Positions 17,284 through 42,889 of a stretch of 64,000 nt of DNA are shown here, in pieces. The stretch is from assembly GCA_014905825.1 (NCBI GenBank), contig JACGCN010000009.1, positions 186,001 to 250,000 of the forward strand. The letters run 5' to 3'. The stretch is from Lyophyllum atratum. Lineage: Eukaryota > Basidiomycota > Agaricomycetes > Agaricales > Lyophyllaceae. Positions within the stretch are counted from its first letter, which is position 1, and each line of letters starts with the position of its first letter. The position numbers were made by a program, and so were the translations under genes. The notes beneath the pieces were generated by a model that was not told where the DNA came from, ran no database searches, and was given only the letters and a program-made list of their open reading frames with translations.

Positions 17284-18640
17284 ATGACCACATCCCTTGA
17301 CCAACTCAAACAAACCGGAACCACTGTCGTCTCCGACTCCGGCGACTTTGCTTGTAAGGACTATCCTTGATCAACAGGGACGACGCGCTTACCCTGACCT
17401 CACTTCAGCGATCGATGTCTATAAGCCACAGGTAGAGTCATCTACGAAATGATCGGGGGAAACTTGAACTCTTACTAGTCATGAATAGGATGCCACGACC
17501 AACCCATCGCTGATCTTGGCTGCTGCTGGCAAGCCCGAGTATTCGAAACTTATCGATGCGGCAATTGCGCACGGCAAGGCGAAGCCTGGCAGCATCGATG
17601 ACAAGGCCAATGCCGCTTTGGACCGTCTGGTAAGTGTGTATCCGGCTGTTATCTTATTTGGTAACCAATCCCTCCTATTAGCTCGTCGAGTTTGGCAAAG
17701 AAATCCTCAAAATCATTCCCGGTCGTGTTTCTACCGAGGTCGATGCTCGTCTATCCTTTGATAAGGAAGCCACAAAGGCCAAGGTACGCGACCATCGCGT
17801 CATGTGCACAGTGTCTTTCTCACCCGTGGGCGTTTCAGGCTAAGGAATTGATCGCTCTATACGAGTCAGTCGGTGTCAAGAAGGAGCGTATCCTGATCAA
17901 AATCGCGTCGACATGGGAAGGTATCCAGGCCGCCCGGGAGCTCGAGCGCGACGACGATATCCACTGCAACTTGACTCTCCTCTTCGGCTTCGGGCAGGCA
18001 GTAGCCTGTGCAGAGGCCGGTGTCACCTTGATCTCACCGTTCGTCGGCCGTGTAAGTCCCGGGCTTATCCCGAACCCCGATGCACGTTTGCTAACCTTAT
18101 ATTTTTCAGATCCTCGATTGGTACAAGAAGAACACGGGCAAGGACTACCAGGGTGACGATGATCCCGGTGTCCAATCAGTAAAGAAGATCTTCAACTACT
18201 ACAAGCAACATGGGTACAAGACCATCGTTATGGGCGCCTCTTTCCGCAACGTGTGTCATGTCAACGATTCTGTTTATTCCTTTACTGAAGCCCTCTAGAC
18301 GGGAGAGATCAAGGCTCTCGCTGGTTGCGATTTCCTGACCATCGCACCTGCGTTGTTGGAACAGCTCAAACAATCGACAGAGCCCGTTCCCAAGAAGCTC
18401 GACGCTGCCAAAGGTGATGTCATTCCCCATCCGGAAGAATCGGGCCGTTTGCTGACGAATCTTCTAGCCGCACAAGCCGACCCCATCCCCAAGGTTTCGT
18501 ACGTCGACAACGAGCCAGAGTTCCGCTGGGCACTCCTCCAGGACGCTATGGCCTTCGACAAGCTGCACGAGGGTATCAAGAAGTTCGCTGAGGATGGCGA
18601 GGCCCTCAAGAAGCTCCTCAGGGAGAAGCTTTCGGCGTAA
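17284..18640 (+). CDS. TAL1: Transaldolase
   Basis: Seven exons, join(17284..17353,17409..17431,17489..17629,17682..17783,17839..18051,18110..18250,18299..18640), give 343 aa. The start [10 protein letters not shown] and the block [13 protein letters not shown] are diagnostic. The Schiff-base Lys is in [11 protein letters not shown] (Lys at about 133). [41 protein letters not shown] and [11 protein letters not shown] follow in the expected order. It transfers a dihydroxyacetone unit between sugar phosphates in the non-oxidative pentose phosphate pathway, in the cytosol. Exon 2 is only 23 nt. All introns are 48-58 nt with GT-AG ends. Confidence 0.98.
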
Positions 18641-21961: not shown

Positions 21962-23959
21962 TTACAAAGGTCCTATGGCGGGTTGAGATGTCATTATAGA
22001 GTCTAAGATCGAGAAGACGACGCGAAGGGGTACGTACGGTGCATTTTCTTGGCGATGAACTTGGCTAGATATTTGACCATCTCTGCCGTCTCCTCACCGA
22101 CGGGACGAATCCACGTTGATGGCAGCGAGAACCCGTACTATATGACGCAGGGAACGTCAGCCCGAAACTCAGCCCGAAGGGAGAAACCATGACGCACCGT
22201 GCCCGTATCCCTCAAGTGCAACACATACGAGTATTTGATGCCCGCACGCTTATACATCCAGTCCACGACATTCCCCGGTGCACGATAGAGCATGTTGCAT
22301 AGTCGTCCCGTCTGTGATACCATTTAGGTTGGCGGAACCATCGAAAGAATTCCGCTAGCTTACCATCATCGCAGTCCCATGCACCCGCCCCATAGCCTGC
22401 GCTGCTCCGAGCCCGGCTTCGAGCTGATCCTCGCCATCCTGCGGGATACGGGAGCACGAGTAGGAGAACGGGGAGGAAACTGGGCGTGAAAAGTCAGGTT
22501 GACCGAACTCCTAGGTAGGACGCAGACGCAGACGTACGCATCTGCCCGTAGTTACGTAGATCAATGAAACCCACGACATTGGGGATCGTGCTGATCAAGT
22601 TCGCGATATTGTTCACCTCCGGCGACTCGAAGGGACGATGGCCGGGATACCAGTGTGAACAGGGGTCGACTGGCTCTCGAGGTTTGGTCGAGTCCGGTTC
22701 GTCTTCAGCTCTTGGTTTCCATTTGTACCCCTGGTCAAGGTAGAGGCGTTATAAGTGGGTCTTGATGTCGGCATTATAGACTTACCCAGTTTCTGTCGGG
22801 TTTCGAAAGCGTCATCGTTGCAGACATCTAGGGAGGGATGGCGATACTAACCGGTTCATGTCTAATCCAAAACATTTGCTCTTCGAGCCCATCCTTTGGC
22901 GCGTCTTGTACCTGGTAAACACGGTCTAAGCACCATAGCATAGACCTTCGGAGCACTTGATAGCGTACCAGAAACGATCGCTCTCCCATGTATAGTCGTA
23001 GCCGTCTGGATTGGGCACAGGAATGATGTAGAAGTCCTACTGCAAGATGAGACTCGTACGGCTGAAGCAGGACAAGCAGGACGACGTACGAAAACATCCA
23101 GAAGGCGGGAAAGGGAGTGAGCTTCGGACACATTCGTCACAAGCGCATGAGCCAGGTAGAGTGAAGTGGCGGTTGCAACCCACTATAGGAAACTTTGAGG
23201 GATGTGAATGAAGGATGAGGGATAGGACGCACCTCGCGCGCGTGCTGCGCACCAATGATTACGAACGCAAGTTTTTCGTCGTCTTCTGGGTGTCTTTCGG
23301 GCTTCTTCTTCTTCTTCCCCTGCTGGCGAGGTCCCTTATCCTCGCTTGTTGCATTTCGCCCCTTCGAGATAGTCAAGCCCAGCATCTCCCGACCCGTTCC
23401 ACTATGCCCCAGACTGTTGACTTGGACGAGATCCGGGTGCAGCTCCTCTAGTTCCCGGATAAAGATATCAATTTCGAATAGTGGATGGTACGCCGTATGA
23501 AACGTCGTATTCTTGAGTGGTAAGCGGTCCCACTCCATAGACGTCCGTGCGGCGTACGTCGTGTGCTCTGGAGTGCTGATATTGGACTGTAGTGCATGTG
23601 GAATAGCTCGTAGCGCTGGTGGCAACGCTGGAGCAGAACTGGGAGAATATACATCGACGTGTGAGTGCGCAACGTGCCACAGGTCCAGGTTGTGCTCCTA
23701 TCAACAGACGCGCCAGGTTAATACGTCAACACGGTTTGGAAGGATATTAAGCGCGCACCTCTGCAAGCGCAAGGACCTGCTTAAGAGCCTCAGAATCCTC
23801 CCCAACATCAAATCGCCATAGTTGTCCGACTGGAAGTTGCTCTGAGCCCGATTGGTGAGGCAGGTTTAAGAAGTGCTGATCGGCAACCGGCTCTGCTTGC
23901 ACCGCCAATAGCAATATGCTCGCAACCCCGACGAGAACGCGCAGCGGCCTCGTTATCAT
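21962..23959 (-). CDS. ECM14: Inactive metallocarboxypeptidase-like protein, M14 family (Ecm14-like)
   Basis: Eleven exons, complement(join(21962..21972,22038..22137,22198..22311,22364..22479,22538..22730,22786..22792,22852..22911,22969..23036,23090..23182,23233..23697,23759..23959)), give 475 aa. A signal peptide (residues 1 to about 22) precedes a pro-region and the M14 domain from about 120. The zinc motif HARE (His219, Glu222) is kept. The third zinc ligand, normally His in DLHSYGQ, is Arg357 (DLRNYGQM), and the catalytic Glu of FELRDTG is His433 (LHLRDTG). Fungal Ecm14 proteins are described as pseudo-carboxypeptidases of the secretory pathway linked to cell-wall biogenesis, so inactivity is expected. 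Exon 6 is a 7-nt microexon that completes RNW. The last 11-nt exon is uncertain: reading through would end the protein 13 residues past the KKMH block. Confidence 0.9.
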
Positions 23960-26551: not shown

Positions 26552-28509
26552 TCAATCAAGGTAGAGGTCATCGAAGTAGTCACGCTTCTGCTTCTTGCCC
26601 TTTCCAGCGGCGGGGTTGTCGACGCCAGACTTGCCCTTGCCGCCAGTCATGGTCTGCCAGTCACTGCGAAAGTTAGTTAGCAGACTCGATCAGAGAAGCG
26701 TTGAAGAAGACTCACGCGAAGTAGTCGTCGTCACGGCCTGCGGTAAATTTGCGGAACTCGCCTTTGGGTGTCTCAGGCTTGTTGTTACCGACGGGGTACG
26801 AGGCCTTGGAGTCCTTCTGCTTCTCCTTGGAACCGGAGTGGCCGCGAGCAAAGAGGTCATCGTCATCGAAATAATCACGCTTCTGCTTCTTCCCCTTTCC
26901 AGCGGCGGGGTTGTCGACGCCAGACTTGCCCTTGCCGCCGGTCATGGTTTGCCAGTCACTGGAAAGTAAATGAGTAAATCAAAGCGGAAGAAAGTGGAAG
27001 AAGACTCACGCGAAGTAGTCGTCATCACGTCCCGCGGTGTGTTTACGGAACTCGCCTTTGGGTGTCTCTGGCTTGTTGTTACCGACGGGGTACGAAGCCT
27101 TGGAGTCTATCTTCTTCTCCTTGGAACCGGAGTGGCCACGAGCAAAGAGGTCGTCGTCGTCGAAGAAGTCACGCTTCTGCTTCTTGCCCTTTCCAGAAGC
27201 TGGGTTGTCGACGCCAGACTTTCCCTTGCCGCCGGTCATGGTTTGCCAGTCACTGAAAAGTAAATGAGTAAATCTAAACAGGGAAGAGTGGAAGACGACG
27301 AAGACTCACGCGAAATAGTCGTCATCACGTCCCGCGGTGTGTTTACGGAACTCGCCTTTGGGTGTCTCAGGCTTGTTGTTACCGACGGGGTACGAGGCCT
27401 TGGAGTCCTTCTGCTTCTCCTTGGAACCGGAGTGGCCGCGAGCAAAGAGGTCATCGTCATCGAAATAATCACGCTTCTGCTTCTTGCCCTTTCCAGCGGC
27501 TGGGTTGTCGACGCCAGACTTGCCTTTGCCGCCGGTCATGGTCTGCCAGTCACTGCGAGAGTCAGTTAGCAGGCTGGATCAGAAAAGCATCAAAGAAGAC
27601 TCACGCGAAGTAGTCGTCGTCACGGCCCGCGGTGTGTTTACGGAATTCGCCTTTGGGTGTCTCTGGCTTGTTGTTACCGACGGGGTACGAGGCCTTGGAG
27701 TCCTTCTGCTTCTCCTTGGAACCGGAGTGGCCGCGAGCAAAGAGCTCATCGTCATCGAAGTAATCACGCTTCTGCTTCTTGCCCTTTCCAGCGGCTGGGT
27801 TGTCGACGCCAGACTTGCCTTTGCCGCCGGTCATGGTCTGCCAGTCACTGCGAGAGTCAGTTAGCAGGCTGGATCAGAAAAGCATCAAAGAAGACTCACG
27901 CGAAGTAGTCGTCGTCACGGCCCGCGGTGTGTTTGCGGAACTCGCCTTTGGGTGTCTCAGGCTTGTTGTTACCGACGGGGTACGAAGCCTTGGAGTCCTT
28001 CTGCTTCTCCTTGGAACCGGAGTGGCCGCGAGCAAAGAGGTCATCGTCGTCGAAGAAGTCACGCTTCTGCTTCTTGCCCTTTCCAGCGGCGGGGTTGTCG
28101 ACGCCAGATTTGCCTTTGCCGCCGGTCATGGTCTGCCAGTCACTGGAAAGAAACTTAGCTGATGAAAGCGAAGAAGATCGAAGAAGACTCACGCGAAGTA
28201 GTCGTCATCACGTCCCGCGGTGTGTTTGCGGAACTCGCCCTTGGGTGTCTCTGGCTTGTTGTTACCGACTGGGTACGAGGCCTTAGAGTCCTTCTGCTTC
28301 TCCTTGGAACCAGAGCCGCCGCGGCGTTCCAGCTCGAAAGCGCGCGCGAAGATTTCAGCCTCGATGTCGCGAACGTACAACGCATCGATGCCCGAATGCG
28401 TCACATCGCGGGCGGCGAGTTGGGACTGGGAAGGGATGGGGCCTGCGTTCGTCAGGGCGAATGAGGCGAGGCAGGCGATAACGGCAGGGGCGATGCTGGA
28501 AGACTTCAT
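26552..28509 (-). CDS. Secreted Kex2-processed repeat pre-pro-protein (KEP/RiPP-like precursor)
   Basis: Seven exons, complement(join(26552..26663,26716..26958,27010..27252,27310..27552,27605..27847,27900..28142,28193..28509)), give 547 aa. Residues 1-22 are a signal peptide (MKSSSIAPAVIACLASFALT then NA). A pro-region ends in LERR at 60-63. Exons 2-6 are each exactly 243 nt, flanked by phase-2 introns, and encode nearly identical 81-residue units. Each unit runs DWQTMTGGKGKSGVDNPAAG, KGKKQKR, D(Y/F)FDDD(D/E)LFARGHSGS, KEKQKDSKASYPVGNNKPE, TPKGEFRKHTAGRDDDYFA. KR follows GKGKKQ at about 133, 214, 295, 376, 457 and 538, and the protein ends DYFDDLYLD. Kex2 would release one N-terminal repeat, five repeats of 81 residues and a nine-residue acidic tail. 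The architecture matches fungal Kex2-processed repeat proteins, including pheromone, repellent and dikaritin precursors. The function here is unknown. Confidence 0.85.
26664..28192 (-). repeat. Tandem exon-intron repeat inside the secreted precursor gene
   Basis: Unit starts lie at 28142, 27847, 27552, 27252, 26958 and 26663, so the period is 294-300 bp (243-nt exon plus 50-57-nt intron). Introns fall in two types. Those at 27848-27899 and 27553-27604 are identical to each other and close to 26664-26715. Those at 28143-28192, 27253-27309 and 26959-27009 are of a second type. This shows duplication of whole exon-intron units. Because every unit is frame-neutral, copy number can change without frameshift. 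Confidence 0.9.
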
Positions 28510-28647: not shown

Positions 28648-28655
28648 TATTTATA
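28648..28655 (-). promoter_or_regulatory. TATA box of the secreted repeat gene
   Basis: TATAAATA on the minus strand, 139 nt upstream of the ATG at 28509. Between it and the ATG, the element GACCAGCAGAG(T/C)GAT occurs twice (about 28566-28580 and 28607-28621). The repeat lies in the predicted 5' leader or core promoter. Confidence 0.5.
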
Positions 28656-30075
28656 CCAATTGGACTCAATCACGTTAGAGCCATATGTGGAGCTTCTCAC
28701 CTATATTGCGAAGGTATCGGAATGATTGTAAGAAGAGGGAACCATGTGTGGTGATCTCAAACGTGCCTTCTCGACAACGATCTCCTATCACATTGATGCT
28801 CCATTGGATTTTAGCTTCATTACCATTGCCAGCCCCCGGCTGAACAATTTGACTGTCTCGGATCTGGATATCTACCTGGAGAAACCTATGGCGATCCAAA
28901 AGTAAACGGAGGCTATGTCGGCCTATTTCGACCTGCAACGCCTCACTGGCGCCTCCTGCACGTTGAGATACCTAGAGAGCTCGAAACACGGCATGACTTT
29001 CCAACTGTTGTCCTGGAGGCATCGGGATGTCAAGCCTACCCCTGACGATTGGCAACATGTAGTACCCAAAAAGGAATGGCGACATATGCGCTCGCATGTA
29101 GATCGCCCGCCAATTCGAAATAGGTCCTGAAACAGATACATAGAATCAGATGGATAGATCGTCGCTGCAGATCACGATCATGGACCTGATTTCTCGACAA
29201 CGATAACACTTACTCGTAGTACTCGTATAGCAGAGGAAACTACCGGCATCTCAGACTGTGGTTGGCTCTAATGGATTGCAGAAAAAAACCTTCCAGAAGA
29301 TGCGTGAAGTCCTTTGGTGAGCTCATGAATAGTGGACGACATTGGAGGACATATTGATAAGGCCCAATCCCGATTCCCGACGCATGGTCATATGGACAGC
29401 CATGATGGTGACATAAAATGAAAATAGCTGCACAGCCACTGATTAATCGTATCAGGTTACTGTCAAGTGACAGCGCCGAGGTCGTTTGGGCGCCTCGACC
29501 GTCGCGACTTGTCGACCTGTCTATTCCAAATTCTATCAAGGCAATCAAACAGTCTGCACAATACGCACACGCCGCAAATCTAAGTACCGGAACCCAGTGG
29601 ATTTAGTTTATGACGTACACATAAGCCCATCGTCCGAAGCACAAAGTCCCAAAGCAAGAGAGAACAGCGAACGACAAAGGAGCGGTGTAGGAAAGGAATG
29701 TGATGGTGGTGGTGGTGGTGGTGGTGCGCGTGAAGATCGTAAATAGTCTCAATGAAGTGAGGGGTGAAATAAATAGGTCCGTCAAGAGGGAATGAAGGTA
29801 CGTCTAAGCATAGTACAGCGAAATAAGGACCTGCTGTGTCACGCATGGTGCAGGCGAAGAAAGGCGGAAAGGAGTACAACAGGGGAAGTGCCAGTGAGGG
29901 TAGTTGGGTGTCCGTAGAATGCGAGTGAATATAGATAGGGTGGTATTAGACTGGGCGGAGGTGAGTTAATAGGCGGGAGATCGTCATTAAGCCATGATGG
30001 TGGGTATTAGATATGCTGAGAAGCCAGTAGAGCGCTGTATGTCGATGGCGCCATGCCACGATGCCGAAGGGGTAT
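28656..30075. other. Intergenic region with a GGT microsatellite
   Basis: No supported gene. Short frames near 28675-29141 have no domain. A (GGT)n tract lies at about 29704-29726. The right end is the 3' flank of the Kre6-like gene. Confidence 0.45.
29704..29726. repeat. GGT trinucleotide microsatellite
   Basis: Uninterrupted run of about seven GGT units in non-coding sequence. Confidence 0.8.
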
Positions 30076-31907
30076 TCAGAGCTTGTCGAAGAAATCCAGC
30101 CTCCGATGGCGCACTTCGTCACCTTGGCAAGACTTGACCGGTACGCCTGTTTTTTGGTAGAACCTCACATAGTCGATGAGGAGCCTCGAGTGACCGGATA
30201 TGGGCCATGGAGGGGCTGGTATGAGCAGCATAGTCAGCAATGCTGACGATTGACGTTCTGCAGTAATAACTTACCTGCGCCGATGGACAAGTGTAACGAG
30301 AACTTTCCTGACGCGCTTTCACCCATTTCTGGCATAGAGGAGGTATCCCTCCCAGTCGTCCAACTCCCCGTCCACTACAAACATTTTTCTCGTCATAAGT
30401 TCCATGGGACTATGGTCAGCATGAAGCACTCACGAAGATCTTCTGAGCTTCAGACGAGCCCCAAGGCATCACCGCAGATATCTCCACATACCCATCCTCC
30501 AAGCAATACGGACTCCGCTGTCGCAAGACATCACTAACATGCCGCCGGGGACCGCTACCGTCGGAAGGTATAGTATACGAGGGAATTATGAGATGGCCGT
30601 CGCGCGTAGTGATATGCTGAGGATCATGGTCGAGAGGGCGACCGATAGCCTCCCAGACAGGATCGTCATCTGAACATGATGGCATCAGCGACATCATAGA
30701 GCACGGCAGGAATCCAAGTTACCTTCGGAGAAAGTCCGCCCATCAGTGTTGAACTCATCTGAGAAGACCAAGGTATACAACGTCCCTTCCCTACCCGCCC
30801 GCGACAGAGCCCCCTTTGGCGTGGCAGGATCAATCACGCCCCATAACGACCTAGAAAAAGATCCAGGACAACCACTGTCAGCACTTCTGCATCACAAGAA
30901 CTTTGCACATGTCAAACTCACGTTAACGGTACCTGGCTTCTCGGGTCAAAGCTCAAAGCTTCCGCCTGCCCCGTCGCATTGATTCTCGTGTTGCCTACTA
31001 TGCGCGCCTTCACCCCATTGTCCGTGAAGAACAGGTAGACGGGGTAGAATACGAAGAGGGTGAGCAGCGCCACGATTAGCATCAACAGCGCCGCAATATT
31101 TTTGAACCCACGCCATGACATGGGGCGCCCAGCAACCTTCACCACCTTCCGTCTAGGATCATGTAGAACATCCATATCATCCATCGCTTCGCCGTCGTCC
31201 AATGAGGGATCATACGCGTATGCTATAAGCCCGCGCTCGGGTGTCATCATGCCTGCGGGGTACTTGGAGTCGGAGGATAGGGATACGAAGGAATCGCCTG
31301 AGTTCGAGATCATCGAGCTTCGGTGGGGTAGGCTGGGTGGGAGGAGGGCATCGTCCGAAGCTTCTGCGCGGCGATACAGAATCATCGAGCCACGGGCACC
31401 GGTCGAGTTCATGCCGAGCGGCGACCCTAGTGAGAGCGCGCGGCTTTCCTCGGATGGTATCCGTGTGATGTGGGCGCTGCCTCGTGAACCTGGGCGCGCA
31501 AAGGGCGAAAGAATGTGCGATGATGGAGGGCCAGAGGGGAATGAAGGATTCAGGGGGGACGACGTGACGCTCCTGTACGACCCGGCACGCGGTATTCTGC
31601 TAGAACCTGCTTCGGGGCTTGTGCCACGAGAGAGCTCTATCGGTGGCTCTTGGCTGGAGTACCTGGGCAAGCCATTGGACGTCGAGGCCGGCGTAGAATG
31701 GCTGGTGCGAGTGCCGTAAGTCGACGAGGATGCCCCAGGCGTGTTGTCCAGTCCGTACACAGGCCGCGTGGGCTGTGCTGCCTCGTCCGCGAGCATGCGT
31801 TGTCTCTCGTGCGGGGAGTTGCGACCAGAGGGTGTGGTATCGGAATAAGGCAGGTCGAATTCTACCTCTGCATAATCTTCTACCCACGATTGTGGTCGAG
31901 AGGACAT
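30076..31907 (-). CDS. Kre6/Skn1-like type II membrane protein lacking the GH16 catalytic core
   Basis: Five exons, complement(join(30076..30215,30275..30374,30434..30669,30723..30850,30922..31907)), give 529 aa. A Ser/Pro-rich cytosolic tail of about 260 residues precedes one membrane helix (NIAALLMLIVALLTLFVFYP), then the lumenal family blocks SLWGVIDPATPKGA, YTLVFSDEFNTDGRTF, DDPVWEAIGRP, ITTRDGHLII and GYVEISAVMP. After IFWTGSWTTGR, where Kre6 proteins continue for over 200 residues including the E-x-D-x-x-E active site, the frame passes straight to LLIDYVRFYQKTG, the normal C-terminal strand. So the catalytic core is missing from an otherwise open frame. Kre6/Skn1 act in beta-1,6-glucan synthesis; this copy should be catalytically dead. 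ATG 31907 is used because the open frame upstream starts with TTG. Confidence 0.8.
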
Positions 31908-34133
31908 TGATGGAGAAATCAAGGAAGGATGTGGACGATAATAAGACGGAGCGTAGTGGCCGACATGTACGCAGAGCCCGCAAGCGATGTGATACGTGAC
32001 CGATGAATTGATGTGACCTGACTTGTCGGATAACGATCCCCGTAAATAGCAACCACCATTGAAGCGTCCTGTTCATCCTGTGGACAAAGCTGAGACCCTC
32101 CCCGGAGTCGAGCAGGCCTTCCCTCCAGAACATTTGCGCAACATACGAGGCAAGTTGATAGGCGTTGAGTGCAAATTAGGCCAAATTCTGACGGTGGAAT
32201 TTTAGTGGTTCCGAACTCCGACCACAACGGGTGCAGGTGCAACACATCAACAGGCTGAGGATACAGCATGGGGAATGAAATATGGCGACATTAACCATGC
32301 GAGAGGCCAGCAGGAGAAGCGATGACACAGTGACCTCACCGGCCCACCTCGCCTCAAACGACAGTTGGAGAAACCGGATTCACTGAACAGGGTCGAAGTT
32401 TTAGCATCCCTTGCGGCCGAAAAAAGTCATATAACGTTACACCTACAGCTCACTAAAACACAGAAATCGTTGACCACCGGTTTCGCGGCGACAAAATCCG
32501 TTGTCTATTCTTAACGACACCATGAAACGCGACCGAAATGTCCAGGAAGGTTCTGAGAAAACACAGGGAATTCGGCCCGAGCTACCGAGCCTCACATGCA
32601 CCGCCCATCATCCGTTTCGGAGGCCAAAGGGGGGAGGGGGAGGAGCGGTTGTTCGAGCAGGAGGGCAATGGTACAGTAGCGCAGTCATTGGAGTAGGAAA
32701 GAGAGTTGCACACGATTTGCAAAATCCGAAGCCAACCGAAGATGTGGTGACGTCATGGGATTAGGCATTTCTTGATTTCCATGTGCTTGGGCAAGCAAAC
32801 GCATTTCTGGGTACGTATACCGTTACTATTAGAGTGTTTGGAGGAAATGCTGAAGGTATGCTTTGTCCCAGCAGATGCCCTTTTTGCCCCTATACTGTAT
32901 CTCCCTGCTTGTGGTACTATACTGACTCGGATATCGACGCTGACTGGAAGACATGCGGCGATGCCATGTCAACGTCGCGGCCAATTTGCGAGTCCACCTC
33001 CATTCTAGCTTCCAAAACGGAACTTCTTGCATCAAGGAGCATCGGACTCTTCAACGAAGCAGGTATAGTGGAACACGCAGGGGTTGAGAATCCACGAGGA
33101 GGCAGACCAAAGGTAGACTATTCATCTCATGACATGCTACATTCAACACTTGATCAATACGTTCCGTCAGGCTTCCCACACGAGCGTAAATGACTATGAC
33201 CGAATTGGAGTATATTTGACAAGTCATGAACCACCGCCAGTATTCGCTGATAGTGATGATGACGAAAGGATGTGTCCGTAAACCGCAAGGTCTACATCTG
33301 AATAGGCCTTTATCACACACCCTCTGCCCGAGCACAGGATGGTCGAGCCTTCTCAAAAATCCCTGTCTTTTTCGGCATTGGCTGAGAGGATGCAATATCA
33401 GGAAAAAGTGTATGTCATGAAATATTGTCGGCGTTACACAGGAGGGAATTCTTGACGTACAACACGTGTACAATCAGCTGTGTTTCCAGCCGACATTGTT
33501 GAACATTGCCACTGGCAACATCGTGTCATACCATCGAACGGGCCTCAAATCACAATCACCTCTGTGCACATCGTAGTCGCTAGGGAGGATGATTTTTCAC
33601 GAGATAGGTACTTCGAAACAACACCTGCTCTTGCAATTATGTGCCGAGTACCCAGAGCTATTGTGGAGCTTACGGTATCGTTCGAGGCGATGTTCATCCA
33701 TGATGGTATCTCTGCCTCACTTACCGACTCGAGACCACTGAATATGCATTCTAGACGTTTGATTATTCAAGGTGCCACACACGGAAGGATACAATCAACA
33801 GATTGACTCATCGAGCTCCACGGAGACCACCTATTTCCAATGACCTGGTAGAAATGCGCATGTGGTATTTAAACGGTATGCCATTCAGCTTCAAACGTTA
33901 CACCTAGCTGGCCTAACGAGTTCCCACTACCACCTACCTTGACGACCCCACTGTCAGCCTCTCTACCCAGTTCGACACTTTTCTTGTACTGACAACACTA
34001 ACTTCAGGGCGTTCCCGCTCCATCTCCTGTGACGACTATCATAAAAAACATCTATATTAATCTTGTGAGTCCACTCCGGCACTATGCTCACAATCATGCT
34101 AAAAAACCTATGTTCGCTATCTCCAGATACACC
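31908..34133. other. Long intergenic region
   Basis: Divergent upstream region of the Kre6-like gene and the small secreted protein gene, about 2.2 kb. Several frames of 80-140 codons (for example 32783-33193 plus and 33480-33806 plus) show no domain, signal peptide or splice pattern. None is called. Confidence 0.5.
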
Positions 34134-37141: not shown

Positions 37142-38468
37142 ATGGCAACTTCTCAGCTCTTCCAGCCCATCAAAGTCGGCGACATGACCCTCCAGCATCG
37201 CGTCGTTATGGCTCCGCTCACCCGCTTTCGCGCTGACGCCCAGCACGTCCCATTGCCTCACGTAGCAGAATACTACGCCCAACGCGCTAGCGTTCCCGGG
37301 ACCCTGATAATATCGGAAGCGACGTTTATTGCACAACGGGCTGGAGGATACCCCAATGCACCTGGCATCTGGTCTGATGCTCAAATAGCTGCATGGAAGA
37401 AGGTAAGGATTTCTTATAGATTCAGCCTGTCCGACTTATAACATAACTAACGATGACCCATACTTAGATCACAGATGCGGTCCATGCCAAGGGGTCCTTC
37501 ATGTACCTCCAACTCTGGGCACTCGGGCGTGCCGCAAACCACTCGCAGCTCCTATCAGAAGACCCAAACATACCCTACGTCTCTGCCTCCGCTGTACCCC
37601 TCCCCGATGAGGGCTCAGCGACCCCGCGTGCACTGACCGTCTCGGAGATCGAGGAGTACATCGAGTTGTACGCGACGGCGGCACACAACGCAGTGCATTT
37701 GGCGGGCTTTGACGGTGTAGAGGTGCACAGTGCGAACGGGTACCTCGTCGACCAATTTCTGCAGGACGTAAGCAACGTTCGAACGGACGCGTACGGGGGT
37801 GATGTGCAGAGACGTGCACGGTTCGCCTTGGAAGTTGTTGATGCCGTCGCAAAGCGCGTAGGAGCGCGTAAGACCGCGATTCGGTTCAGCCCTTGGACCA
37901 CGGTACAAGGTATGTCCTTACTTGCAGAGTTCTCCGACCACCTATGATTACTGACACGCGTCATCAGGCATGGGTATGACTGACCCCAAACCGACCTTCA
38001 GCTACGTTGTGCAGCAGCTGCGCGCGCGCATTCCCGACCTCTCGTACATCCACGTCATCGAGCCACGCGTGAACGGCACGAGCACCCTGAAGAGCATACC
38101 CGCGGAGCAGTCCAACGACTTCATCCGCGACATCTGGAGTGGCGGCAACCGGAGGCTGATCAGTGCGGGCGGATACACAAGGGCCCTAGGGATAGCGCAG
38201 GCGGATGCGAAGGGTGATCTGATTGCGTACGGACGACCGTTTATTGCAAATGTTCGTTCCCGTTTACTTGAAACGTGGATTTTCGCTGATATACCTTCTG
38301 AAGCCGGATTTGCCATACCGCCTTGAGAAGGATGTGCCGTTGACGATTGGTGTGCGGAAGTTGTATTATCAGTATGGGAGTACGGATCCCAAGGGTTACA
38401 CCGACTATCCATTCGTCGGCGAGGAGATGGCGGCGAAGAATCTATTCCGGGCAGAAAGCAAGCTGTGA
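37142..38468 (+). CDS. NADPH dehydrogenase, Old Yellow Enzyme family
   Basis: Four exons, join(37142..37402,37468..37909,37968..38251,38304..38468), give 383 aa. The FMN-binding barrel blocks are clear: MAPLTRFRA, ISEATFIAQRAGGYPNAPGI, MYLQLWALGRAA and GVEVHSANGYLVDQFLQD. In the last, His174 and Asn177 bind substrate and Tyr179 is the proton donor. RTDAYGG and LIAYGRPFIANPDLPYRLE follow. It reduces alpha,beta-unsaturated carbonyls with NADPH. Intron 3 has a weak donor (GTTCGT), chosen because it restores FIAN-PDLPYRL. ATG 37142 is used: the open frame extends upstream, but the family begins here. Its neighbour, a NAT, is also a xenobiotic-type enzyme. Confidence 0.95.
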
Positions 38469-38979: not shown

Positions 38980-41262
38980 GGTGTGAGACAATTTGTCGTG
39001 GTGAAACGGGATCCATCTGCAGATCGAAGAGGCACAAGTGGCGGTCGCGGACCGCATAATCGGGGGCGAGGGTTTGTTCATGTCGGATGGGTTGGTGAGA
39101 GAGTGTCTGCTCCGGTGGTGTAAAATTGACTCCGCGATGTGTATTCTCGTGATGAAGAGGAGAGCTCGAGCTCAGAGATTGACCTTGGCATGGACGCAGC
39201 GCGATCCCTGATGTTTCTACGACCCTGGTCCATGACTCGCGTAGGCCTATCTGAATCCGCATCCGTAGGAAAGGGCGGAGGGCCGTGATTCGGGGGTATG
39301 CATACGGGATGTATCAAGGGCAGGCCGTCCCAGACGCCAATGCACCATGGTTCAATTCTTCGCACCTCGTTCATTGCCCCAGTGTCAAAACAATCCAATC
39401 CGCGTGAAAGCATCGTACTATAGAATCAGGAGACGCTAAGCCAAGCCTGGCACCCAGAACCCGTTCCGAATCCATTGGTGCGTCCTATCTCGCCCATTGC
39501 GTGGAATCCGCGTTTGTGAGCCTGGTTCCGGGAAACTGCCTTCTGTCCGGAAAGAAAGGCGCGTCCACCCCAAAACTGGAGTCGTAATCCTGGAACATCA
39601 TGTTTTCGGGCTCGATGACGATGGTGGATCGCCTACGTACCCCGGCGCGTTGTTGCAAGTGCCCTCGCCTATCCACGGACATGATGCACTCGAGATTACT
39701 TACGGCTGCCGCTCAATATTAAATACTCCCTGATCAAGGGCCAGCGCGTACGCGGGAGATTCGAATATGCAAGTAGAAAAGGCAGGTTGACGGTCAGGCC
39801 CCAGGCCCCAGAGCCAAGGGATGGGTCGGAATCCGAACGAGCAGTTTTGTAAGTAATGGGCGGGCGCCTCGTGCCCGAAACTTCCAAGTTAATATGACTT
39901 GCGACTTGCATGTCGTGCTATAGGCGGACGGGACGGGTAAGTACTACTCCTGAGTCCTGATCCAAACTTCGACGTTTTGTATCCAGGCTCCGAACTCCAA
40001 GTGGGTGGCAAGTGCGAATCATCATCTGTATATAGGAAGTCACTGTATGCTTCGAGCTTCTCAGAAGGGTTCTGACGTCGACTCGGATCAGCCGATCCGG
40101 TGGGGAGGCATGATGAAAAGCACGTTGGAGGGGAGATTGGGATGGCTCGTTGGGGATTGAGAAGGGGCTTCGGTGCGGTGCCGGTGTCGGTGTGCGTTAG
40201 GGATAATCCGTATGTAAGTCTGGAAGCAGGGGGTGCGGTAGAAATTTTCCTGAGGCGGATGACACTGGCAGAGAAGGCTGTAGAGGTGTAGAAGGTGAAG
40301 ATACTGGGATGACAAATGACTTGGACTCGGGCGTTCTTTTGGCTACTGCAAGTCTACATCCGATTCTGATGCTGATCATCTTCATCAATGCGCTATACGC
40401 CCGCGCCTTGAACTTGGCGTCCGGTCCTACACGAGGAATCGATCATACTTTGTGGGCGTCGCGGCAGGGTTAATAAACGGGCCCATATGATTGGATGCCA
40501 CTGCCAGGCTTCAGAAGTGATGTGATGTGATGGTACCGGGCGCGCGTGGTGGGATGGGACGCGTCGAATGGGCCAAGAAGTTTGAGAGACCGGAGTCGAG
40601 CTGACGCTGTGTGTCCGACGTTCAAGGCCGGGGTCGATGAGATTTGCTAGGCTGTGGAGCGAGTAGTATCGTGCATCATGTGTGGTATACTGACACTAAG
40701 GGCGGTTTGGGGGTGGTATTCGGGTCCGGAATGCTGCGATCAGTGGAGACGAGTAGCAGACGCATGAAATTCGGTGCGCCGCTATTAGGGATATTTGGAG
40801 TCTGGACAGGATAGAGGGAAGGGACCTATATGTTGTATGTTGGCGGCCATTGGAAGGGAAATGCACGCGTGATGCACTGAAGAGATGACAGGCACTTGAC
40901 CAGTGTCAGTGACTGATCATGATGGTGGTTTGATTTTTTGTGGTCCCGTAAGGTAGCAACCTGCAGACGTTTTGAATGCTGCTGGCATAATATGGAGCAT
41001 CGAGCCCCTTGCAAGGTTGGATAGCGGTGTAAAAGAACAAAGAAATTGTGAAACAAGAGGAGAGATAGTGGGACAGTCAGGAGGCCAACCTGAAGTGGCT
41101 GGCTCGGCTGACATACTTGGCTTGATTTCGCCCTGATCAGCTTTGTATCTTGAACCCACACGACGACGACAACAACAACGACAGCGACGACAGCAACGAG
41201 GGCGGCGTACGAGCATTATATAGAACAGAGCACAGAGAGTTTGCCCCTGCTCATCACGCCAC
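38980..41262. other. Long intergenic region
   Basis: About 2.3 kb with no supported gene. Minus-strand frames at 39078-39413 and 39485-39682 and plus-strand frames near 40100 lack domains and splice structure. Confidence 0.5.
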
Positions 41263-42889
41263 ATGGATTCAGGCAACGAGTCTCCTCCACTGCGCACCAC
41301 CATCCTCGGTTCCTTCCTTCGAGGACGACCACGAAACTCGTCGCAGTCGCACATCATCACCACCGACCTTCGTGAGACCTCGCCATCGCCGCCACAGCCG
41401 CCATCACCCAACGGCCTCGTGGTCGGCGGCCACCGTCGGAGCAGAGCCGCACCAGCGGCACCAACCGTGCAACCCTCAGCCTCCCATCAAGCAACCACCA
41501 CCACCACCACAGGCCTCGGTCTCTCCAACATGCTCCGCCGCCGCCGCTCAGCAGGCACTCTCGCCAGTCCCGTCGTAGGCCCCACCGCCCCACCGCCCGC
41601 AATGCCACCAACAGTGGCACAACCCCAACCCCAACCACCCCAACCCCTCGCCCCCTCAGCCTCCGCCTCCGCCAGCCCCAACCCCAACGCAACACCCTCA
41701 GGCGCCCACCGTGTCCGCCTGGTCCCCCACATCGACTCTCGTCGCACGCTTCGCTTCGACGCCATCAGCCGCGACCTCAAGGAAGGCGACCCCGCCCTCC
41801 GCATCGGGCGCTTCACCGATCGCTCAGGCCTGGGCCTGGCCGCCGTCAATGCCTTAGGCACGAATCGCCTGGCGTTCAAATCCAAGGTCGTCTCCCGCGC
41901 GCACGCGGAGATCTGGGTCGAGGCGGGCGGGCGCTTCTTCATCAAGGACACGAAGTCCTCGAGTGGCACGTTCCTCAACCATGTGCGGCTGTCCCCTGCG
42001 AACACGGAGAGCCGCCCGTATCAGATGAAGGATGGGGATATATTACAGCTTGGGGTGGATTATCAGGGCGGGGCGGAGGATATCTACAAGTCTGTTAAGA
42101 TCAGGATCGAGCTCGGGCGGGAATGGCAAGCTGGTGCCAATGCATTCAAGTGGGTGGTCTCATCACCCTATCATCCGTATCCCTAACTAAAAACGACGAC
42201 CCTTTTACAGCACCAATACCCTCAAGATCCTAAAAACCCTCGCCCTCCCAGCCGCCCCAAGCAAAGGCCCCTCCTCCGCCCCTCCGAACGCCGGCCACAG
42301 ACCCACCAAATCCTCCCAAATCCCAGACTGCTGCATCTGCCTCTTCGCCGTGACGATCCGCCAAGCCCTGTTCATCGCCCCCTGCTCCCACACCTTCCAC
42401 TACAAGTGCATCCGCCCGCTCCTCGAGACGCACCACCCCGCGTTCTCGTGCCCCCTATGCAGGACGTTTGCGGATCTGGAAGAGGACGTGGAGGTGGAGG
42501 TGGAGTATGCGGAGGAGGAGGATGAGCTGGATGGGGTCGGTGGGGAGGAGGGGCATGCGGGGGTAGGGGGGGACGATGAGTCGGTGGCGGAGGGAAGGGC
42601 GACGCCGGCGGAGGGGATGGATGGTGGGAGGATGAGGATGTCGGTGACGCGTGTGCCGGGGACGTTTGAGGAGGATGAGGACGCGGACGCGGATGACATT
42701 GATGATGTGATGCTCGATGTGCATGGGGGTGGGGGTGGGGATAGCGAGGGCAGCGGCAGCGGCGGGGACGGGCCTGGCGCTGTGAGGGCCGATAGCCCTG
42801 CGCTACTCCTTGTTGGGGAGGAGGTGGGGGAGGTCATCGATGAGATGGAGGTCGATGGGACGGTTGGCGTGAAGCGCGTGAAGCGGTGA
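41263..42889 (+). CDS. FHA-RING E3 ubiquitin ligase (Dma1/Dma2/CHFR-like)
   Basis: Two exons, join(41263..42149,42211..42889), give 521 aa. A Pro/Ser/Gln-rich N-terminus of about 140 residues precedes an FHA domain (ALRIGRFTDRSG, KSKVVSRAHAEIWV, KSSSGTFLNHVRLSP) at about 150-285; the Arg and Ser-x-x-His phosphothreonine pocket is kept. The RING-H2 finger has Cys336, Cys339, Cys354, His356, His359, Cys362, Cys376 and Cys379. The C-terminus is very acidic. Yeast Dma1/2 and fission yeast Dma1 use this FHA-RING pair to ubiquitinate spindle-checkpoint and septation targets. The same role is inferred here. Confidence 0.93.

Follow-up and report, generated by a model that had tools for sequence, protein, structure and literature searches.

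A seven-exon gene on the reverse strand of a 64,000-nucleotide stretch of Lyophyllum atratum DNA (the window) very probably encodes a precursor of the Kex2-processed repeat protein (KEP) type. In the preferred reading, which was given a probability of about 0.6 from sequence comparison, each repeat unit would be cut at two kexin sites, i.e., after KR and after LxxR, freeing cationic cores of about 68 residues and short acidic spacers. The gene represents a new family of a known general kind, the KEPs, and is set apart from Rep1, Rsp1, Ece1 and the Coprinopsis cinerea KEPs by the descriptions of those proteins.

The gene is real, and its exons, joined from the ATG at 28509 to the TGA ending at 26552, form one open frame of 547 amino acids (Table 1). 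The six introns are alike, each 50-57 nt long and of the form GTGAGT...AG (GT-AG). Each internal unit consists of a 243-nt (81-codon) exon plus one intron at a fixed place, so duplication of units keeps the frame; the array was detected by TRF at 26567-28323 (period 295, 5.9 copies, 89% matches). The seven-exon splicing is predicted from the DNA, with support from P0014, a public 133-aa protein of L. atratum (100% identity over 93% of a 142-aa query) that reads through the junction of exons 1 and 2; the predicted sequences of homologues continue across that junction as well. The P0014 model stops after one unit, and the repeat array is therefore missing from at least that annotation. At exactly the intron position of the window gene, protein P0011 has 20 inserted residues and protein P0015 has 16. 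These would most simply be retained introns, in which case the within-unit intron is apparently common to other species. Upstream of the ATG, CCAATTGG and TATAAATA are plausible candidate promoter elements; a bacterial-type promoter scan was empty, its model not being relevant to this fungal gene.

Table 1. Positions of the gene, its predicted parts and neighbouring frames in the window (arrows mark putative cuts)
Feature	Position	Strand	Remark
Whole gene, ATG to stop	26552..28509	-	seven exons, 547 aa
Exons	28509-28193, 28142-27900, 27847-27605, 27552-27310, 27252-27010, 26958-26716, 26663-26552	-	
Six introns	28192-28143, 27899-27848, 27604-27553, 27309-27253, 27009-26959, 26715-26664	-	same place in every unit
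Signal-peptide-like N-terminus, residues 1-22	28444..28509	-	boundary set by eye; homologues start alike
Pro-region, residues 23-63	28321..28443	-	sites LAAR, LYVR, IFAR, LERR
First core unit, residues 64-133 (G...KR)	28061..28320	-	split by intron 28192-28143
Six KR sites	28066-28061, 27771-27766, 27476-27471, 27176-27171, 26882-26877, 26587-26582	-	
Six LxxR↓G sites	LERR 28332-28321; LFAR 28039-28028, 27744-27733, 27449-27438, 27149-27138, 26855-26844	-	
Five acidic spacers D(Y/F)FDDD(D/E)LFAR	26844..28060	-	between KR and next LFAR↓G; net charge -4 each
Free acidic C-terminal tail DYFDDLYLD	26555..26581	-	
CCAATTGG adjoining TATAAATA	28648..28663	-	pattern positions; ~140-155 nt 5' of ATG
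Frame with SKN1/KRE6/Sbg1 match	30918-32072	-	upstream on same strand; sub-cut-off, E 1.8e-5; beta-glucan synthesis family
Frame matching zinc carboxypeptidase M14	23137-23697	-	
Frame matching transaldolase	17665-18156	+	
Frame matching FMN oxidoreductase	37468-37947	+	
FHA and RING domain matches	41224-42889	+	

By appearance the protein has the plan of a secreted, repeat-bearing Kex2-type precursor, as had been proposed in an earlier note on this DNA: a signal-like start, a pro-region closed by LERR at residues 60-63, and six KR pairs starting at residues 132, 213, 294, 375, 456 and 537, a spacing of exactly 81. The note also placed an acidic aromatic element after each KR, which held for five of the six; the sixth is followed instead by the nine-residue tail that the note had listed separately, and the tails of other species are unlike it (DLFEEEFDLD, DFFDSELELS, GLLDFDLDLD). 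Cutting after KR or RR past residue 22 would give fragments of 41, 70, 81, 81, 81, 81, 81 and 9 residues. In the scheme of Le Marquer et al. (PMC6339444), a KEP gives four or more KR/RR fragments, of which three or more are similar, and its repeats cover at least 15% of the protein; by these repeat criteria the window gene is included, with eight fragments of which the five of 81 residues are nearly identical. The KEP repeat motifs given in the same source range from 3 to 352 aa, some being over 51 aa.

The part that the note did not pick out is a conserved basic segment of about 68 residues running from LxxR↓G to KR. Leaving out the allele, 11 genes offered 32 internal junctions, and arginine stood at both ends of the acidic spacer in every one. 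The spacer began after KR in 28 and after PR in four, and it ended in LxxR in 29 and IxxR in three, followed by Gly in every case. Where the pro-region gives way to the first core, the border was likewise LxxR↓G in the 12 genes in which it was reached (the window gene and 11 homologues, leaving out the fragment P0015 and P0012, where it was not reached); it was the dibasic LERR in four of these and LITR in P0003. P0012, a diverged Tephrocybe rancida paralogue, stands outside the 32 junctions because the pattern recognised a single unit in it; there KR↓D is followed by LEDR↓D, and its pro-region ends in FETR↓G. The junction of P0009 has KK, PR and RR in place of KR, and P0010 (Mycena) ends in GKGKY where its other units carry KR, if the gene model is complete.

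Within the basic segment lies a conserved block of 50 residues, KASYPVGNNKPETPxGEFRKxTAGRDDDYFxDWQTMTGG...NPAA. Over the 55 possible pairs of the 11 genes that have internal junctions, mean identity was 0.758 for this core, 0.412 for the acidic spacer and 0.432 for the residues from R↓G to the core. The core was the more similar part in 52 of the pairs, the spacer being at least as similar in three. The note's choice of D(Y/F)FDDDxLF as the core was thus not borne out, since that element is among the least conserved parts and is closed by LFAR↓G, another Kex2-type site; it also resembles DIEAEIFAR of the pro-region and the homologue spacers DLFDEELEVR and DEIVEIEAR. Among the units recognised in 14 genes (allele excluded), TAG was kept in 46/46, DDYF in 46/46, NPA in 45/46 and GEFR in 43/46. 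Twenty positions were invariant in 13 hand-picked units, and the second unit of P0006, outside the 13, breaks some of them.

The units of the two L. atratum copies gave a core pN/pS of 0.041 (pS 0.25, pN 0.010; 13 units, two haplotypes, 78 unit pairs), compared with 0.188 for the 31-residue inter-core stretch (55 unit pairs) and 0.111 for the acidic 11 residues alone (within genome), all ratios being drawn from non-independent unit pairs and open to distortion by gene conversion. Codon by codon in 11 units, 21 of the 50 core codons varied only synonymously and two by replacement; the corresponding counts were four and two of 11 in the acidic spacer, and one and three of 12 after R↓G. Introns averaged 75% identity and core exons 94%. 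Purifying selection on the protein core is clear. The acidic spacer is also constrained within the genome, and may therefore matter itself.

These observations bear on whether kexin would cut at KR only, which is close to the view of the earlier note. That would yield the C-terminal nonapeptide together with peptides of 79-81 residues, each opening with the acidic aromatic stretch. The canonical Kex2 site is KR, here evenly spaced, LFAR has Ala at P2, and the within-genome constraint on the acidic stretch is consistent with its being part of a product. However, that stretch is poorly kept between genes, yet its LxxR↓G end is present at every junction counted, and the first core, encoded in exon 1, has no acidic stretch and begins directly after LERR↓G, so that equal products require a cut at R↓G. 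Cleavage at KR only therefore appears rather unlikely. If the LxxR site is cut, the KR-bounded repeats whose masses the note had proposed to search for would give wrong predicted masses.

The number of KR pairs was also compared with chance. Six were present against a shuffle mean of 4.2, and 438 of 2000 shuffles reached six; the regular spacing follows from tandem duplication. For [LI]xxR the nine sites present, five of which are copies of one site, compared with a shuffle mean of 0.79, and none of 2000 shuffles reached nine. As the KR count does not exceed what is expected for so basic a protein, what argues for processing is the placement of the arginines together with the precursor plan. 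A KR number near chance would suit a secreted repeat protein that stays uncut, i.e., a disordered basic matrix or wall protein whose Lys-rich KR tail binds anionic polymers. Such a protein is improbable, because arginine is kept at both spacer ends while its neighbours drift, with only PR replacing KR over the 32 junctions, and because the spacer that follows the basic tail is net acidic at all of them. Charges across the 11 genes were +4 to +10 for core segments and -1 to -6 for spacers.

Cleavage at the second site would be in keeping with what has been described for kexins. LxxR is given as an expanded Kex2 motif (PMC8528282), yeast Kex2 is described as strongly preferring LXXR, and Ece1 of Candida albicans as cut in a Kex2-dependent manner after IVAR and LITR (PMC6258133); products of C. 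cinerea KEPs made in Pichia were apparently cut after single arginines (PMC9769878). The P2 residue of the LxxR sites here was Ala in 22 and Val in seven of 32, and neither belongs to the five alternative P2 residues given as best in PMC8528282, so cutting may be partial or slow, although IVAR is one of the sites described as cut. Kexin-type P-domain matches were found at four places in the two-haplotype assembly.

The two-site reading would run as follows. After removal of the signal peptide the precursor would reach the Golgi kexin, which would cut each 81-residue unit twice, once after LxxR and once after KR (replaced by PR in some relatives), and a carboxypeptidase would trim KR from the released cores. 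The predicted products are six copies of a Cys-free cationic peptide of about 68 residues, G(G/H)SGSKEK...KASYPVGNNKPETPKGEFRKHTAGRDDDYFADWQTMTGGKGKSGVDNPAAGKGKKQ, with a net charge of +5 after KR trimming (+7 with KR) and a GRAVY of about -1.6 to -1.7. The spacers, DYFDDDDLFA, would be discarded as small propeptides that partly offset the core charge. Secretion, cleavage, trimming and the role of the spacer are all predictions from sequence. An AlphaFold model of the homologue P0007 (11 sequences) had a mean pLDDT of 48, a pTM of 0.17 and a pLDDT of about 38-52 over the block, with cores lacking a fold and the pro-region forming a long helix at moderate confidence. The core is probably a linear, unstructured peptide, although an 11-sequence alignment is too shallow to prove disorder.

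These properties also bear on a possible likeness to Rep1 of Ustilago maydis, whose repeats would find their counterpart here in a hyphal surface peptide assembling on the wall. The precursor plan is shared with Rep1 and Hum3, which likewise have Kex2-separated repeats of tens of residues in many copies, and a frame 2.4 kb away matches SKN1/KRE6, of wall glucan synthesis, below the cut-off, which is a weak pointer. Rep1 peptides of 35-53 aa are described as arising from 34-55-aa repeats (PMC4617103). The same source describes amphipathic repeats in Rep1 and Hum3 and amyloid-like fibrils made of Rep1, whereas the cores here are very hydrophilic and have no predicted fold, with no strand predicted in the low-confidence model; a repellent-like role accordingly has a low probability. 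Rsp1 of U. maydis, also compared by description, shares hydrophilic imperfect tandem repeats with putative Kex2 motifs between them, but its repeats, of 18-21 residues, are shorter than the units here. Ece1 is similar in being a polypeptide with KR sites, seven in its case, and with further Kex2-dependent cuts, after IVAR and LITR (PMC6258133), but its repeats are described as less conserved and one of its products as cytolytic. Among C. cinerea KEPs, 497993 is alike by description in its signal peptide, its repeats between Kex2 sites and its apparent single-Arg cuts; the C. cinerea peptides described are about 7-19 residues long (PMC9769878), compared with about 68 here, where cores alternate with acidic spacers.

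The earlier note had also named dikaritin RiPP precursors as a known group, and a precursor of that type, with cyclised core peptides, would share the Kex2-repeat plan of ustiloxin and asperipin-2a and could draw on the Tyr-containing acidic stretch. Dikaritin cores are short, and a UstYa (DUF3328) gene is expected near their precursors. The genome gave at least 13 UstYa matches in an exon-by-exon search (a lower bound), none of which lay on either contig carrying the gene (C141 and C67), and dikaritin cores are much shorter than the conserved core; this origin is very improbable. The gene does not resemble an alpha-type pheromone precursor: the STE13 signature (XA/XP) is absent after the Kex2 sites, KR being followed by DY or DF in 6/6.

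Three protein searches, two of which scored the best 7995 and best 7994 candidates, yielded 15 related proteins, three of them with query coverage of 96-100%. They came from Lyophyllum shimeji, L. atratum, Tricholomella constricta, Tephrocybe (four), Asterophora parasitica (three), Crucibulum laeve and Mycena floridula, together with two JGI proteins and P0013, a weak partial match (E 2e-3). According to a taxonomy look-up, L. atratum, T. constricta, T. rancida and A. parasitica belong to the Lyophyllaceae, Mycena to the Mycenaceae and Crucibulum to the Nidulariaceae, all within the Agaricales. The persistence of a long core across these three families points to a specific target and away from a peptide that changes fast. 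At that search depth the 15 matches included none from Hypsizygus or Termitomyces.

The assembly (64.8 Mb, 151 contigs) carries the gene on C141. A second copy lies at 519900-522000 of C67 and is 94% identical over 6.4 kb, the match extending past both gene ends. The second copy encodes 628 aa and has seven units versus six in the window. Since 10 of 13 UstYa matches and four of four kexin matches were paired on two contigs, C67 was read as the other haplotype. Unit number is polymorphic within one assembly, with six and seven units on the two haplotypes. No further paralogue was found beyond these two loci among the best candidates scored.

The earlier note did not recognise the core sequence from a described family, and the searches agreed. 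The window protein had no Pfam match above cut-off. When six homologues were searched, HphA_N exceeded the cut-off on P0004 and P0010 and DCD_C on P0010; both were judged repeat-inflated matches to short stretches, as HphA_N stayed under its cut-off in P0002 and P0007 and was missing from the matches listed for P0001 and for the window protein. A PDB sequence search with P0002 gave a best E of 0.54, which is chance level. Six sequence words from the conserved block occurred in none of the 5.39 million papers searched, whose scope excludes supplements, figures and subscription journals, and titles and abstract starts on Lyophyllaceae with Kex2 or effector topics contained nothing on this peptide family. 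As supplements and figures lie outside that scope, homologues may well stand in KEP tables such as Umemura's (PMC7329392), where the widespread type G-1 (#7) is described as containing Termitomyces, Hypsizygus and Crucibulum; the present family might correspond to that type. The LxxR sites suggest that surveys cutting only at KR, RR or KK, like that in PMC6339444, misplace peptide borders where such sites are used.

KEPs are described as numerous in fungi, with functions largely unknown, and knock-outs of six C. cinerea KEPs as giving no phenotype, with roles in biotic interaction suspected (PMC9769878). By analogy with these other Agaricomycete KEPs, a role in contact or communication with other organisms, or at the fungus's own wall, is a guess, and confidence in any specific function is low. 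The conserved linear peptide would act extracellularly, at a dose set by unit number. A fuller proposal is put forward tentatively: an undescribed Agaricales family in which each cationic unstructured core of about 68 residues is made with an acidic mini-propeptide between KR and LxxR kexin sites. One precursor would then release a conserved peptide, acting as hormone or effector, and an acidic partner in near-equal numbers, the dose being tuned by unit number (six versus seven).

The gene neighbourhood is mixed, as judged from 20 scanned of the 63 open frames of at least 150 aa in the window (Table 1). In Asterophora parasitica, P0006, P0008 and P0011 end in runs of acidic ELEAR↓D-type spacers (in P0008, for example, ...ELEARDFFESELEARDFLAELEARDFIDELD), the spacer having been multiplied without the core. 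Their DFIDELD tails look like the DELD motif, a feature of Serendipita effectors.
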